Shown one piece after another: positions 5,133-31,639 of a stretch of 33,027 bases of DNA (position 1 is its first letter; every line of letters begins with the position of its first letter). Under the pieces are notes generated by a model that was not told the origin of the DNA, did no database searches, and worked only from the letters and a program-made list of their open reading frames with translations. The stretch is from the IMG/VR virus record IMGVR_UViG_3300010885_028674, positions 1 to 33,027 of that record, one strand, 5' to 3'. The position numbers and the translations under genes are program-made. Source of the DNA: a virus.

Positions 5133-5564
5133 ATGGGTAGAACATATATTGAAAATAGAAAGGTAAGGTTTGAATATCACATTTTAGATACCTATATTGC
5201 AGGTATTGTATTACAGGGTACCGAGATAAAATCTATACGTAACGGAAAGATTTCAATGAACGACTCGTTCTGTTACTTTAATAATGGTGAATTGTATATC
5301 AAGAACATTTTAATTTCTGAAACTAAAGACGCTTTTACCCATAGTGCTAAGAGAGACCGAAAACTATTACTTAAGAAAAAAGAATTGAATAAGTTGAGCG
5401 ATAGTTTGGTTAAAGGTTTAACTATTTTACCATATAAAATTTTCATGAATGATAGAGGTATTGTTAAACTTGAAATCGTTTTAGGTAGAGGTAAAAAGCT
5501 CTATGACAAAAGAGAAACAATTAAAGAAAGAGATATAAATAGAGAACTTAAAAAAGAATATTAA
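5133..5564 (+). CDS. smpB: SsrA-binding protein SmpB homologue
   Basis: The 143-aa protein aligns by eye along the whole SmpB family: NRKVRFEY at the N-terminus, IAGIVLQGTEIKSIRNGKI, DSFCYFNNGEL, then KRDRKLLLKKKEL and GRGKKLYDKRETIKERD near the end. SmpB binds tmRNA and brings it to stalled ribosomes for trans-translation; its C-terminal tail reads the empty mRNA channel. The DKRETIKERD tail element is present and the protein is only a little shorter than cellular SmpB. SmpB is rarely seen on phage genomes. No tmRNA was recognised in the window. A host-type promoter sits directly before the ATG. An unknown 78-aa gene follows after one base. Confidence 0.93.
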   Translation: MGRTYIENRKVRFEYHILDTYIAGIVLQGTEIKSIRNGKISMNDSFCYFNNGELYIKNILISETKDAFTHSAKRDRKLLLKKKELNKLSDSLVKGLTILPYKIFMNDRGIVKLEIVLGRGKKLYDKRETIKERDINRELKKEY

Positions 5565-19493: not shown

Positions 19494-20086
19494 TAACTCA
19501 AGAATTAACAATAAGAGAATTAAATTTTCCTCATTCACACGATAAGAGGACTTTAATGTTGAATGATATTTTAAATAATATTGTTGGTAATAAAAATTAC
19601 CAAAAACATAATGTGTTTTGTGAGTTTAGGTGTAACTATCCAGGTCGTGATTATTATTTCTTCATAAAGACAAATCCATATATCAACTCAGATATTTTAT
19701 GTGAGTCAGTTTATTATTTGATTGAAGAAGTTTTGAATTGGTATGATTTATCGGACATTGAAAATTTTGAAGTGAAATTTGAGGAAGGTAACCGTAGAAT
19801 GAAATGTACTTATTATGATTTAGCTTGGTGGGGTTATAGTAGAAGTAACTCACCTTGGGGGAGAAAACCATCATATAGTGATGAAAAACTTGATAGAATA
19901 CATAAGTGGATGCAACGTAAGATGTATGACGAAAGACAAGAATATCAAGAAAAGATGACAAGAGCTTTAGGTGGTGGAAGAATGTTTTGCGAAAACACGG
20001 AACCTATTAACCAAAAAGTTATTCATAAACCTAAAGGTTTTATTATGAAAGTTAAAGAAATATTTGTAAATTTGTCTTATGTTTAA
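19490..20086 (+). CDS. 198-aa protein of unknown function
   Basis: It is coupled to the primase-like gene through ATGA. The sequence has an aromatic segment (YYDLAWWGYSRSNSPWGRKP) and a basic helix (IHKWMQRKMYDERQEYQEKM). The C-terminal 25 residues (QKVIHKPKGFIMKVKEIFVN) overlap the next start. No domain was recognised; a role beside the primase-like protein is only inferred. Confidence 0.65.
   Translation: MITQELTIRELNFPHSHDKRTLMLNDILNNIVGNKNYQKHNVFCEFRCNYPGRDYYFFIKTNPYINSDILCESVYYLIEEVLNWYDLSDIENFEVKFEEGNRRMKCTYYDLAWWGYSRSNSPWGRKPSYSDEKLDRIHKWMQRKMYDERQEYQEKMTRALGGGRMFCENTEPINQKVIHKPKGFIMKVKEIFVNLSYV
20067..20074 (+). promoter_or_regulatory. TAnnTTTG box (TAAATTTG) before the CCA-enzyme gene
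   Basis: The box ends four nt before the ATG at 20079 and lies inside the preceding gene. No clear -33 element is seen. Confidence 0.4.
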
Positions 20087-20807
20087 ATTCTATGAAGTAG
20101 GTGGTAAGGTCAGGGATGAGATTTTAGGTCTCCAATCTAAAGACGTGGACTATGTTGCGGTCCCGAGTGAAATTTTATTGGAGAAATATAAAAGTGCTCA
20201 TGAGATGTTTGTCATCTTGGAAACATATCTTACTAATGAGAAGTTTGAGATTTTCTTGTCAACACCTGATTGTTTCACCGTTAGAGCTAAGTTCCCCAAA
20301 GACCACAAGTATCAGGGAGTTGCAGACTTTGTAATGGCCCGTAAAGAGATTGGGTATGTGGAAGGTACAAGAACACCTATCGTTGTACCAGGAACCCTTA
20401 AAGATGATTTGGAACGTAGGGACTTTACCGTTAATGCAATGGCGAAAGGTGAGGATGGGGAGATTATAGATTTGTTTGATGGAATGAAGGACTTAGAGAA
20501 GATGGTTTTAAGTACTCCACTACCAACAAAACAAACATTTGATGATGACCCACTTCGTGTTTTAAGAGCGATTCGTTTCGCAATCACCAAAGGGTTTAGT
20601 TTGAAACACTTAGATTACTACATCAACAACTACGATTATGAAAATAAGATGAAGGTTGTTTCTTCTGAAAGAATCCGCGAAGAATTATACAAGTGTTTCA
20701 AACATGATACTATGGATACTTTGGACACTTTGAATGATTACCCAACACTTAAGAGATATATCTTCGAGAATAAATTAATGTGGTTAAAACCAACAATGGA
20801 ACAATAA
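20079..20807 (+). CDS. Compact CCA-adding enzyme / poly(A) polymerase family nucleotidyltransferase
   Basis: The 242-aa protein has class II nucleotidyltransferase signatures: GGKVRD (8-13), KDVDYV with D22 and D24 as metal ligands, DDLERRDFTVNAMA (~109-122), EIIDLFDGMKDLE and FDDDPLRVLRAIRFA (~154-168), then SSERIREEL. The family adds CCA to tRNA 3' ends or A tails to RNA. The head and neck are present, but the protein is far shorter than cellular enzymes (about 400 residues), so most of the body and tail domain is missing. All visible catalytic residues are kept. With smpB it suggests phage interference in RNA or translation. Confidence 0.88.
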   Translation: MFKFYEVGGKVRDEILGLQSKDVDYVAVPSEILLEKYKSAHEMFVILETYLTNEKFEIFLSTPDCFTVRAKFPKDHKYQGVADFVMARKEIGYVEGTRTPIVVPGTLKDDLERRDFTVNAMAKGEDGEIIDLFDGMKDLEKMVLSTPLPTKQTFDDDPLRVLRAIRFAITKGFSLKHLDYYINNYDYENKMKVVSSERIREELYKCFKHDTMDTLDTLNDYPTLKRYIFENKLMWLKPTMEQ

Positions 20808-26351: not shown

Positions 26352-28160
26352 ATGAATAGAAAAAGGTTATTAATCACTGAGGACGATAGGAGACACATAT
26401 TAGGACTTTATGGAGTTCTAACTGAGGCGATTGACCCTAATTCGGGAGGTACTGTAACAATTAATAATTATTATCCTAATGGATGGTACACGTTAGAAAA
26501 CAAAGACACTAAATCAGGTAAAATTATTAAAGACCAATTAAATGAAGCTTTAGCACAGGTTACCGAATTTGTTAAAAAACACCCCGATTCTATTGTAAGT
26601 GTAAAATTTATTTCACAAGAGTCAGCGATACCAAATAAAGATAATGAAGGAAAAGAAGGTGGGGATTTTTTACCTGTTAAAGGTTTAAGTGATTTAAGAA
26701 AAAAATATTTAGAACCATACATTAAATCTTATTTTGATGGTTTAAAGACCCAAAGGGTTATTGGACAAACCGTTGAGGTCCCACCGTTAGAATATATCCC
26801 AAAAGACTTTGTAACTCCTTGGGTGGGAACCCCATTTTGTCCTGCAAGTGCAACGATACAACAACAAAGAAGTGAATGTATTAATAAATATAGACAAGGA
26901 GTCGCGGCAAAAAATCCTGAAATTGTAGGATACAAAGCAAAATATGATACCGAACAATCAAGTGCGATTGAGATTACGGTTAAATTAAAAACCTCAACAA
27001 CAACTCAAACAACTAAACCAACCACAAATTTCGAGGCTTGTGCAAAAGGATTTAAAGTTAGAGTTTATGTACCTAAACATAATTGTCAAAACGCTGAATT
27101 TTTTGTATTTGCAAATAGTACAATACTATATAATTCACAAGGAGGTTTAACTGCTAATCTTAATAACTCCTACACAAGTAGAGGAATTCCAAGAACTGCG
27201 TCGTTACCTAAATTTTATCCTGAGGCTTTAAATCCTGGATACGGGTTCTTAAAGAATGGTGACGGAACGTTGGGTTCTTACAAATTTGGTAGTAAACAAC
27301 TCTTTAATGAGGAAACCCCTAAAAACACGGGAGATAATGGTAACGGTAGGTCTGACAGTTTCACAGTTACAGGCGAACAAGCTAAAAAAATGTTAGTTGA
27401 GGGTTCAGGTAAAATAAATCTTTGGATGATAGGGACTACCGACACAACCCATGATGACATAAACTTTGTTTCAATAACTGACGAGGACCAATCAAAACCT
27501 TTTTACGATAAACAACCTAATTTTAATCAAGGTAAACTACTTACAATTAGTTTTGACGCTACATGTAAAAGAACTGTTATTGATAACAATGATAAAACAG
27601 TACCTGATGTTACAGGGTGGGTGGATAAACTTAGACAAGAAAAAATTGCGGTAATGTCTGAAGTTGATAACATGGGTATAAAGACTGGTGACAAAAAAAC
27701 TGAAGCTAAAAGAAAATCAATTACCGATTCTAAAGCCGTATTACAAGAAAGAGTTGAAGGATTAGTAAGTAAAATGTTTGCTTTATTAACATCTATTTAT
27801 GATGACGTAAGTAAAATACCAACACCAACATCCGTTGATAATGGAATCGCCGAAAAAATTAAAGCTGACTATAAAGAGTTTTATAGTGGGTTAACTGCAA
27901 CGGGAACAGAGAAAGAACCTCTAATAGCTTTAAGTCAAGATGCGGATGGTGATTTTACAAATAAAACCTTACGTGATGACCCTTTATATGGGGATATTAG
28001 AAATAGAATGAATCAATTTTATGAAGGGTTTAATGCGATATATAAAAATAAAGAGGGTGTAATAACTCCTAATGGAGTTCGTAGGTCAGACGGGTCTTTA
28101 AATGTAACAACTCTTTTAAATAGAATAAAAGGTCTAAAACAATGGGAGTTTAGACGTTAA
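26352..28160 (+). CDS. Tagged 602-aa protein, paralogue of the gene at 28462-30255
   Basis: It starts with the tag KRLLITEDDRRHILGLYGVL; L23-T24-E25 is a possible prohead-protease-type site. Residues ~55-130 (helix, then SIVSVKFISQESAIP and LSDLRKKYLEPYIKSYF) loosely recall an OmpA-like fold, but this is weak. The middle contains TPFCPAS, a Thr-rich linker (TSTTTQTTKPTTN), CQNAEFFVFAN and NPGYGFLKNGDGT. After VPDVTGWVDKLRQEK the rest is helical (coiled-coil-like), ending in a small conserved domain (DDPLYGDIRNRMNQFYEGF). An internal or virion protein is inferred. Its stop overlaps the opposite lipoprotein gene. Confidence 0.8.
   Translation: MNRKRLLITEDDRRHILGLYGVLTEAIDPNSGGTVTINNYYPNGWYTLENKDTKSGKIIKDQLNEALAQVTEFVKKHPDSIVSVKFISQESAIPNKDNEGKEGGDFLPVKGLSDLRKKYLEPYIKSYFDGLKTQRVIGQTVEVPPLEYIPKDFVTPWVGTPFCPASATIQQQRSECINKYRQGVAAKNPEIVGYKAKYDTEQSSAIEITVKLKTSTTTQTTKPTTNFEACAKGFKVRVYVPKHNCQNAEFFVFANSTILYNSQGGLTANLNNSYTSRGIPRTASLPKFYPEALNPGYGFLKNGDGTLGSYKFGSKQLFNEETPKNTGDNGNGRSDSFTVTGEQAKKMLVEGSGKINLWMIGTTDTTHDDINFVSITDEDQSKPFYDKQPNFNQGKLLTISFDATCKRTVIDNNDKTVPDVTGWVDKLRQEKIAVMSEVDNMGIKTGDKKTEAKRKSITDSKAVLQERVEGLVSKMFALLTSIYDDVSKIPTPTSVDNGIAEKIKADYKEFYSGLTATGTEKEPLIALSQDADGDFTNKTLRDDPLYGDIRNRMNQFYEGFNAIYKNKEGVITPNGVRRSDGSLNVTTLLNRIKGLKQWEFRR
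26410..26680 (+). repeat. First copy of a diverged direct repeat shared with 28520-28790
   Basis: The 5' portions of the two ~600-aa paralogous genes are highly similar at DNA level, with long identical stretches around the codons for QVTEFVKKHPDSIVSV. Similarity falls off in the middle and C-terminal parts. Confidence 0.7.
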
Positions 28161-28461: not shown

Positions 28462-30255
28462 ATGAGAAGATTATTAATTACAGAAGAAGATAGAAGACAT
28501 ATTTTAGGATTATATGGGATTTTAACAGAAGCCATCGACCCTAATTCAGGAGGGACAATAACAATAGATAACTATTATCCTGCGGGATGGTACACGTTGG
28601 ATAACAAAGATACTAAATCAGGAAAAGTTATTAAAGAACAACTGAATGAGGCTTTAGTACAGGTTACCGAATTTGTTAAAAAACACCCTGATTCTATTGT
28701 AAGTGTTAAATTCATTTCGCAAGAATCTGCAATTCCAAATAAAGACAATGAAGGTAAACATGGAAGTACTTGGTTAGCACTTGGAGGGTTAAGTGATTTA
28801 AGAAAACAATACTTAGAACCATACATTAAAACTTATTTTGACACTTTAAAAACTCAAGGAGTTATCGGACAAACCGTTGAGGTACCACCACTTGAATACG
28901 AAAAGAAAGACTTTGTAACTCCTTGGGTAGGAACCCCATTTTGTCCTGCAACCTCAACAATTGCTCAGCAAAGAAGCGAGTGTATTAATAAATATCGAAG
29001 TGGTAAAGAAACCACTTATAAAGATTATTTTAACAAATATCAAACAGAACAATCAAGTAGAATTGAGATTACTGTAAAAATAAAGGCAACAACTACTACA
29101 CAAACAACAACAATTAAAACAACTGGTTATACTACTTGTGCCGCAGGGTTAAGTATAAGAGTTTGGGTCAAAACACATCAATGTCAAAACGCGGAATTTT
29201 TTATTTTTGCAAATGATTTACTACTGTATAATTCACAAGGAGGTATGACCGCAAATCTAAATAACGCGTCTACTACAAGAGGAATACCAAGAACAGATTC
29301 AGAACCATTATTTGGACCTGAGTATTTAAATCCAGGATTTGGATATTTAAAAAATGGTGATGGTACTATTGGTTCTTATGGTTATGGTAAAGTAAATGAA
29401 AGTGGAGATTTAACAGGTAGTAGGTCAGACACATTTAAATTAACTAAAGAACAATCACTAACATTATTAAACGCTGGTAAAGGTAAGATTAGTCTTTGGA
29501 TGATTGCGACAACAACTACTGCTCATAAAGATATCCCTCAAGTAACAATCACTAAAGAAGATGGTACTGTTATTTACAACAAAGCACCTAAAATTGTACA
29601 AGGTAAATTATTAACGTTAGATGGATGTACATTACAGGTTGTTGAAGGAACTGATGCAACAGTCCCTGATGTTACAGGTTATGTGAATATAATTAGACAA
29701 GAACGAATGAATTTACAATCTCAAGCGGAAAACGCTGAGATGGCTAAAACAGGTAGTAAAAAACAACAAAAGAAAAAACAATCAACTTTAGATAGTAAAG
29801 GAAAAATATTAGAGAGAGCCTCAGATTTGGTAACTCAAATGACAACGTTCTTAAATTATTTAAAACCCGCTTTAGAAAAAAGCACACCACCTTCAGGTTC
29901 CGCAAGTATGGCAAATCTAGGGACGCCTGAAATTCAAGCGGAAATAGATAAATACTATAGTATATTTTATAGTGGTTTAACTTACTCAGGAACACCTGAA
30001 TCCCCTGAACTACAACTAGGTAAAAATAGTGAGGGTGATTATATTAATAAAACTGTTAGGACTGATGATTTATTTGGTGATATTAGAATGTATATGGACC
30101 AATTCTACTCAGGATTTGATGCGGTTTACGCGAACGATGAAGGAGTTTTATCACCAACAGGTATTAGAAGTATAAATAGTAAAGGTGTTGATAAAGGATT
30201 AAAAGGGTCTAAAATATTAAGCAATATTAAAAAGTTAACACAATATACAATATAA
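28462..30255 (+). CDS. Tagged 597-aa protein, paralogue of the gene at 26352-28160
   Basis: It begins RRLLITEEDRRHILGLYGIL with L21-T22-E23 as a possible processing site. The first ~150 codons are close to the paralogue at both protein and DNA level. The middle and C-terminal parts diverge but keep landmarks: TPFCPAT, CQNAEFFIFAN, NPGFGYLKNGDGTIGSYGYG, VPDVTGYVNIIRQER and DDLFGDIRMYMDQFY. The Thr-rich linker (TTTTQTTTIKTT) is also present. TATTTAT is 37 nt upstream, farther than usual, across the lipoprotein promoter. Recent duplication or gene conversion of the 5' part is likely. Confidence 0.8.
   Translation: MRRLLITEEDRRHILGLYGILTEAIDPNSGGTITIDNYYPAGWYTLDNKDTKSGKVIKEQLNEALVQVTEFVKKHPDSIVSVKFISQESAIPNKDNEGKHGSTWLALGGLSDLRKQYLEPYIKTYFDTLKTQGVIGQTVEVPPLEYEKKDFVTPWVGTPFCPATSTIAQQRSECINKYRSGKETTYKDYFNKYQTEQSSRIEITVKIKATTTTQTTTIKTTGYTTCAAGLSIRVWVKTHQCQNAEFFIFANDLLLYNSQGGMTANLNNASTTRGIPRTDSEPLFGPEYLNPGFGYLKNGDGTIGSYGYGKVNESGDLTGSRSDTFKLTKEQSLTLLNAGKGKISLWMIATTTTAHKDIPQVTITKEDGTVIYNKAPKIVQGKLLTLDGCTLQVVEGTDATVPDVTGYVNIIRQERMNLQSQAENAEMAKTGSKKQQKKKQSTLDSKGKILERASDLVTQMTTFLNYLKPALEKSTPPSGSASMANLGTPEIQAEIDKYYSIFYSGLTYSGTPESPELQLGKNSEGDYINKTVRTDDLFGDIRMYMDQFYSGFDAVYANDEGVLSPTGIRSINSKGVDKGLKGSKILSNIKKLTQYTI
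28520..28790 (+). repeat. Second copy of the diverged direct repeat shared with 26410-26680
   Basis: See the first copy. The boundary is approximate because it was judged by eye. Confidence 0.7.
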
Positions 30256-30560: not shown

Positions 30561-30592
30561 TTTGGCAGATTAAAAAGAAAAACATATCTTTG
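30561..30592 (+). promoter_or_regulatory. Strong host-type promoter (TTTGGCAGAT ... TATCTTTG)
   Basis: TTTGGCAGAT at 30561-30570 and TATCTTTG at 30585-30592. The same extended -33 element occurs at 31404-31413 with identical spacing. Confidence 0.85.
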
Positions 30593-30597
30593 TACTG

Positions 30598-30790
30598 TTG
30601 ATTTGATAACGAGATAAATCTTAACCTAAAATCAGAGCGACACTTAGAACAAGTAAAACTTCTTCTATGTGGGGGTCGATACACCGAAAGGTGGTAGTTA
30701 AGTGGGTAAGTTGGAACACCCTAACCAACCGCTGAGGTACACCGCGATAGGGTAGTGAACCATTCCCTCACCGAAAGGTGGGGGTTTTTT
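30598..30790 (+). ncRNA. Structured non-coding RNA of about 190 nt
   Basis: The region lacks an ORF but is bounded by a strong promoter and a strong terminator. It is GC-richer than its surroundings and can form several helices: TGATTT with AAATCA near the 5' end; CACC-GAAA-GGTG at 30682-30693; and GTTA plus GGGT (30697-30707) with ACCC and TAAC (30718-30725). The last loop contains GTTGG (30710-30714), which can pair with CCAAC (30725-30729) as an H-type pseudoknot. GGGTAGTG near 30750 can pair with CATTCCC and would compete with the terminator stem. I see no tmRNA, RNase P or tRNA signature. Confidence 0.65.
30765..30790 (+). terminator. Intrinsic terminator of the ncRNA
   Basis: CCCTCACC-GAAA-GGTGGGGG is an 8-bp stem with one wobble and a GNRA loop, followed by six T. 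Confidence 0.95.
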
Positions 30791-31379
30791 ATGTTAATTT
30801 AATTGTTTTTTGATTTTTTTTACCATAGAAAGGAACTCCTTTTATTTGGCTCTTCAGGTATAAAGTATAACTTGGTTCTCTATCTCTATATTGGTTCATT
30901 TTAATAATAACACTGTATAATTTACCATCTGAGAGAGCGGTACCCTCAGCAACATCACCATCTTTTAAATTACCTAAAAATATTTGTTGTGCGAATTTGT
31001 CTGCGGCTTTTCTAATGAAATCAAATCCCTCTAAGTACTTAGGGTCAACTATTCTTGGGTTATAAAATTTACCCCCTTCTTGATAATCAGGGTCGGATAA
31101 TCTGAAAAGTCTCTCCAAAAAATGAGTGTCATATTTAATATTAAATTTGATTTTACCTTCTTTATTAGTCCTCTTATCAATATAAGTTCCGTAAAACGGA
31201 TTAATCTTTCTTAAATAACCATCTAATATTGGTTTGGCTTGAATAGGTATTTCAATCTTATGTTTTTTAGAATCCTCCTCAATAATTTTAAAATATAACG
31301 GGTCCACAAAACCAACTCTACGTAATATAATATTGTCATTAGAGTATTCCCTTAAAATTTTATTAATTATTTTCTCCAT
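30789..31379 (-). CDS. Tagged 196-aa protein of unknown function
   Basis: The N-terminus MEKIINKILREYSNDNIILR is a shorter tag version with I-L-R-E at 8-11. The body is basic and beta-rich (KIEIPIQAKPILDGYLRKIN, KIKFNIKYDTHFLERLFRLS), with a helical segment (GFDFIRKAADKFAQQIFLGN). No domain was recognised. TATTTAT is five nt upstream. The gene is convergent with the ncRNA terminator. Confidence 0.72.
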   Translation of the reverse strand: MEKIINKILREYSNDNIILRRVGFVDPLYFKIIEEDSKKHKIEIPIQAKPILDGYLRKINPFYGTYIDKRTNKEGKIKFNIKYDTHFLERLFRLSDPDYQEGGKFYNPRIVDPKYLEGFDFIRKAADKFAQQIFLGNLKDGDVAEGTALSDGKLYSVIIKMNQYRDREPSYTLYLKSQIKGVPFYGKKNQKTIKLT

Positions 31380-31403: not shown

Positions 31404-31435
31404 TTTGGCAGATAACCATAAACACATTATCTTTG
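31404..31435 (+). promoter_or_regulatory. Strong host-type promoter (TTTGGCAGAT ... TATCTTTG)
   Basis: Same -33 extended element and spacing as the ncRNA promoter; TATCTTTG at 31428-31435. It drives the 50-aa gene at 31479. Confidence 0.85.
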
Positions 31436-31478
31436 TAAAACAAAACCGATAGATACAAACCCTTTAAAATATTTGACG

Positions 31479-31631
31479 ATGAAAGCTTATGACCAACACA
31501 AGATGAAAAGAACTCAAATCAGACAAGACCAACTACAAGCTGGATTCTTCGATGGAAGATTCGTGTCTAGAGTTGAGACTCCTAAAAACGTTTACTCAAG
31601 AAAGTCAAAACACAAAAGAGACTTGAACTAA
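31479..31631 (+). CDS. 50-aa very basic protein
   Basis: This ORF encodes MKAYDQHKMKRTQIRQDQLQ, then a short GFFDGRF motif and a Lys/Arg-rich C-terminus (YSRKSKHKRDLN). The promoter, terminator and C-rich codon use (TAC, AAC, TTC, ATC) mark it as highly expressed. A basic peptide of this size may bind nucleic acid or ribosomes. The GFFDGRF element resembles small phage proteins I have seen, but I cannot name a family. Confidence 0.75.
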   Translation: MKAYDQHKMKRTQIRQDQLQAGFFDGRFVSRVETPKNVYSRKSKHKRDLN

Positions 31632-31639
31632 TATACTGA

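Follow-up and report, generated by a model that had tools for sequence, protein, structure and literature searches.

Among phage small RNAs with a known function, base-pairing and the titration of the ribosome or of an RNA-binding protein of the host are common. In type III toxin-antitoxin loci, a pseudoknot RNA arranged in tandem repeats is located upstream of a gene for a ToxN/AbiQ-type endoribonuclease on the same strand. Another pseudoknot RNA, tmRNA (RF00023), can be found in phages encoding SmpB, and further stand-alone, structured, non-coding RNAs of phage genomes are collected in Rfam. Functional RNAs in uncultured Bacteroidota phages have barely been charted. The small RNAs of B. thetaiotaomicron include stand-alone transcripts with promoters of the type recognized by sigma-ABfr, the Bacteroides primary sigma factor, for which the promoter consensus has been described (PMC7366714).

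Here, we analyzed a stretch of 33,027 nucleotides (IMG/VR record IMGVR_UViG_3300010885_028674, positions 1-33,027), in the following called the window. On the basis of sequence comparison, the region 30561-30790 is assigned with high confidence as a genuine, undescribed stand-alone structured RNA gene with a predicted transcript (Table 1). With the B. thetaiotaomicron small RNAs (PMC7366714) it has the promoter type and the stand-alone layout in common; it differs in being phage-borne, and the sequence relation was compared through Rfam alone. In a search of Rfam 15 (4227 families), none of the scores reached the gathering threshold, and matches obtained at permissive thresholds were rejected as terminator-driven or due to chance. 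Thus, the RNA resembles the phage-encoded structured RNAs of Rfam in kind but matches none of the families, in agreement with the preliminary description, in which it had been called undescribed. Like the type III antitoxins (ToxI and relatives), it is a small RNA genetically coupled to one protein gene, with a putative H-type pseudoknot whose strands are conserved but invariant here. However, only one significant copy was found in every record instead of tandem repeats, and in place of a downstream same-strand ToxN/AbiQ-type endoribonuclease gene there is a convergent gene without family match. The likeness to type III antitoxins does not go beyond that of a putative pseudoknot RNA with a linked protein gene.

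Homologues of the RNA were detected in seven other IMG/VR contigs, which together with the window represent four lineages and five distinct sequences; all contigs in the comparison are fragments. Two near relatives, G001 (L002) and G002 (L004), were obtained by exact-pattern scans of IMG/VR and share 91% and 78% nucleotide identity, respectively, measured over promoter and RNA. A scan with the pseudoknot core yielded a distant lineage of five near-identical contigs (L035, L036, L038, L039, and L040), in which the RNA is placed alike, with its own promoter, the same terminator frame, and the same convergent gene, and has a size of about 155 nt vs. about 190 nt in the window. When a covariance model for the 3′ domain was derived from the near relatives alone, it already scored this group at an E value of about 6e-4. 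The carriers of the RNA are uncultured viruses of Bacteroidota-type bacteria. In cultured phages and plasmids, the RNA gave short chance matches only and the convergent protein gave none, SmpB-bearing huge phages contained no significant copy of the RNA, and protein-pattern scans of viral contigs with the neighboring proteins returned already known contigs only. A Lokiarchaeia contig with an 18-mer match was discarded as a chance hit since the similarity stops at the 18-mer and the sequence looks like coding sequence; the matches L037 and L041 were likewise due to chance.

Table 1. Features of the predicted RNA gene and the adjacent convergent gene (positions in the window)
Feature	Position	Strand	Description
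Bacteroidota-type promoter	30561-30592	+	TTTG (30561-30564), 20 nt, TATCTTTG (30585-30592)
Structured RNA gene (predicted)	30596-30790	+	Start inferred from promoter; end at terminator T-run
P1, 5′ strand	30620-30625	+	CUUAAC; pairs with 30697-30702; 4 of 6 pairs compensated in L035 lineage
P2, variable hairpin	30639-30679	+	Folded in the window; position kept, pairing not cleanly supported; partly deleted in G002
P3 hairpin	30680-30696	+	UACACC-GAAA-GGUGGUA; 3 of 4 core pairs with compensated double changes
P1, 3′ strand	30697-30702	+	GUUAAG; partner of 30620-30625
H-type pseudoknot (putative)	30704-30729	+	S1 GGGU (30704-30707)/ACCC (30718-30721); S2 GUUGG (30710-30714)/CCAAC (30725-30729)
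P5 hairpin	30736-30761	+	GGUACAC...GUGAACC; UCAG...CUGA instead in L035 lineage
Intrinsic terminator	30765-30790	+	CCCUCACC-GAAA-GGUGGGGG-U6; stem 30765-30784 plus T-run
Convergent gene	30789-31379	-	196 aa, no known family; stop codon overlaps RNA terminator T-run

The promoter motif (TTTG-N20-TATCTTTG) occurs seven times in the window compared to 1.67 expected occurrences, and none of 100 shuffled sequences reached this number. Ahead of the RNA, it is kept in four of four lineages (window, G001, G002, and L035) though the upstream genes differ. The intrinsic terminator is conserved and covaries in the relatives. Stop codons interrupt all three forward frames in the window, G001, and G002, no frame is common with L035, and the homologues are separated by non-triplet indels. 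The host-type promoter, the strong terminator, and the absence of an ORF reported in the preliminary description were thereby confirmed. Nucleotide identity of the RNA was 95% and 88% compared to 77-80% for the coding neighbors. A second, near-identical promoter (TTTGGCAGA...TATCTTTG) was noted at 31404-31633 of the window, ahead of a conserved 50-aa gene.

The folding energy of the RNA in the window (-58.8 kcal/mol) exceeds that of shuffled sequences only moderately (z = -2.33), which is modest when taken alone, and therefore a comparison with relatives was needed. In an alignment from which the variable loops had been removed and into which padding N had been inserted by hand, double changes were found in 8 of the 27 named pairs, every one of them compensated, and 100% of the cells were paired. 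A model-fitted full-length alignment gave a similar result (7 pairs; 97.3% paired). The covariation score was 0.333 vs. 0.146 for shuffled alignments, none of 500 shuffles reached the score, and sliding the partners destroyed the signal. Four of the compensated pairs belong to the long-range helix P1, three to the P3 hairpin, and one to the terminator. P1, which is the best-supported helix and had been missing from the preliminary description, reads CUUAAC/GUUAAG in the window vs. CUCGGA/UCCGAG in L035, with both partners replaced in four successive pairs; its strands were correctly aligned by sequence-only MAFFT. These four double changes represent one divergence, and in a fixed register all four would compensate with a chance of about 0.04; independent support is provided by P3 and the terminator. 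The P3 core is CACC/GGUG, CGUC/GACG, or CACU/AGUG in three lineages, and the terminator is topped by a C-G, U-A, or A-U pair depending on the lineage. An invariant U-G pair in the terminator and another U-G pair in P3 of L039 would be mismatched on the opposite strand, which places the fold on the + strand. These compensatory changes in homologues bear out the structured RNA claimed in the preliminary description, in which such a covariance analysis had been suggested. The folding energy alone would be compatible with helices that arise by chance around a real promoter and terminator, but such an origin is very improbable, as it is contradicted by the compensated changes in P1 and P3 and by conservation above that of the neighboring genes. 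Because the fold was kept while the letters changed, and because the same protein gene is constantly located tail-to-tail with it, we consider it very likely that this undescribed RNA is real and functional.

The GTTGG/CCAAC strands had previously been assigned to an H-type pseudoknot. All four pseudoknot strands have the same sequence in every lineage, but the loops vary in length (3 to 4 and 3 to 2 nt), in line with that assignment. As S1 and S2 do not vary, covariation provides no proof here; invariant strands combined with changing loops favor a conserved pseudoknot. A nested pairing, as obtained by RNAfold, would be the alternative, and it is weakened in L035. Two further proposals on the fold fared less well. 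The 13-nt repeat CACCGAAAGGTGG reported for two hairpins does occur in the window; as a repeat, however, it is not conserved in the relatives, where the counterparts are CGTCAAATGACGG and CACTGAAAAGTGG in G002 and CACTCAAAAAGTGG and CACAGAAATGTGG in L035. The helix GGGTAGTG/CATTCCC, which had been thought to compete with the terminator stem, is absent from the L035 lineage and thus not supported.

In every record found, the RNA lies tail-to-tail with the convergent gene, and the stop codon of this gene is located at the terminator T-run each time. The encoded protein is 44% identical between the window and the distant lineage. A search with the protein alone selected seven contigs, exactly those holding the RNA, so that the RNA pattern and the protein search, run separately, select the same contigs. 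The window and the distant lineage have few genes in common, these are placed elsewhere, and near the RNA just the convergent gene is homologous. For the protein, no profile match to any family, including toxin or defense families, was obtained; a very weak Pfam hint pointed to the T4 RegB endoribonuclease (E 0.15). The structure model was poor (pLDDT 55) and gave no usable fold match. The helices and strands had seemed to follow a RelE/RegB-like order, but this was not confirmed. The convergent gene showed no convincing terminator ahead of the point from which its transcript would be antisense to the RNA.

According to the preliminary description, the RNA does not match tmRNA landmarks. In our analysis, no tmRNA was scored on the window, G001, and G002 fragments. 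These three do encode SmpB (in the window at positions 5133-5564; PF01668, E 1.4e-48), which could suggest that the phage protein has a divergent, tmRNA-like partner in this RNA. This reading is hardly credible, since the RNA has half the size of tmRNA, a tRNA-like domain with acceptor and T-loop, a tag ORF, and a 3′ CCA were not seen in it, and SmpB is missing from the L035-lineage fragments although these carry the RNA. Moreover, several SmpB-bearing phages carry an ordinary tmRNA elsewhere: among seven records with SmpB that were searched in the phage collection, four (two Lak phages, one 636-kb phage, and one 64-kb fecal contig) gave a tmRNA above threshold. A protein with a CCA-adding/poly(A) polymerase head domain (PF01743, E 1e-17) is encoded at 20079-20807 of the window, so that an RNA 3′-end enzyme occurs beside SmpB in the same phage.

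We propose that the RNA would be transcribed from the phage genome by the host RNA polymerase with its primary sigma factor, and that its own terminator would end the transcript. The 5′ half, closed by P1, would carry the variable P2 and the covarying P3, followed directly 3′ of P1 by the compact, near-invariant pseudoknot, then a hairpin, and then the terminator. We infer that such a stand-alone structured phage RNA quite probably acts in trans, an estimate that leaves the identity of the partner aside. It would offer a binding surface that is formed in advance and contacted at the rigid pseudoknot, with an interchangeable scaffold made up of P1 and P3. A protein would be the most likely ligand, with the convergent-gene product as a tentative first single candidate; the main alternative would be the ribosome or an RNA-binding protein of the host.

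Alternatively, the RNA may control the convergent gene in cis, either as antisense RNA or as a shared 3′ terminator region. Such a role is suggested by the 3′ ends meeting at the terminator and by the lack of a convincing terminator for the convergent gene ahead of the RNA. It is nevertheless unlikely, because the RNA barely overlaps the coding sequence, its fold lies on the + strand, and pure antisense action needs no compensated internal fold. That the RNA targets the host, through base-pairing or through titration of an RNA-binding protein or of the ribosome, with the convergent gene linked by mere co-inheritance, is plausible, albeit somewhat below an even chance. The independent host-type promoter and terminator fit this explanation, and this way of acting is common among phage small RNAs with a known function. 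On the other hand, conservation is highest in a structured pseudoknot and not in an open seed, and the linked gene persists where the remaining synteny is lost.

In a further reading, RNA and convergent gene would form a two-part RNA-protein module, in which the pseudoknot RNA binds the 196-aa protein and checks or guides it in a type III-like manner or as a small RNP, without being a type III member. The agreement of the RNA-pattern and protein searches, the differing other neighbors, the recurrent overlap of terminator and stop codon, and the very weak RegB hint are consistent with such a module. Yet only four lineages are available, the tail-to-tail arrangement is unlike known type III loci, and neither the poor protein model nor the profile searches linked the protein to a fold or to toxin or defense families. 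We therefore regard the module as possible but doubtful. More doubtful still is the specific version of a new phage module in which a junction-plus-pseudoknot RNA binds, and then controls or uses, a tail-to-tail-encoded protein of unknown fold. The gene is compact, its fold is supported by covariation, its putative pseudoknot is sharply conserved, and a single protein gene is always linked to it, which offers the direct question of RNA-protein binding. The RNA would represent a new Rfam family, and phages may thereby gain a new type of RNA-protein control module.

Many unrelated proteins encoded in the window carry an M-x-x-I-I-[TS]-E-like N-terminal motif (7199, 8065, 13877, 15919, 18441, 24835, 28462, and others), which may direct them to the capsid or serve as a prohead-protease signal, similar to internal proteins of T4. 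The N-terminus of the convergent protein is somewhat similar to this motif. The same motif is also present in two adjacent paralogues of about 600 aa each, encoded at 26352-28160 and 28462-30255 of the window.
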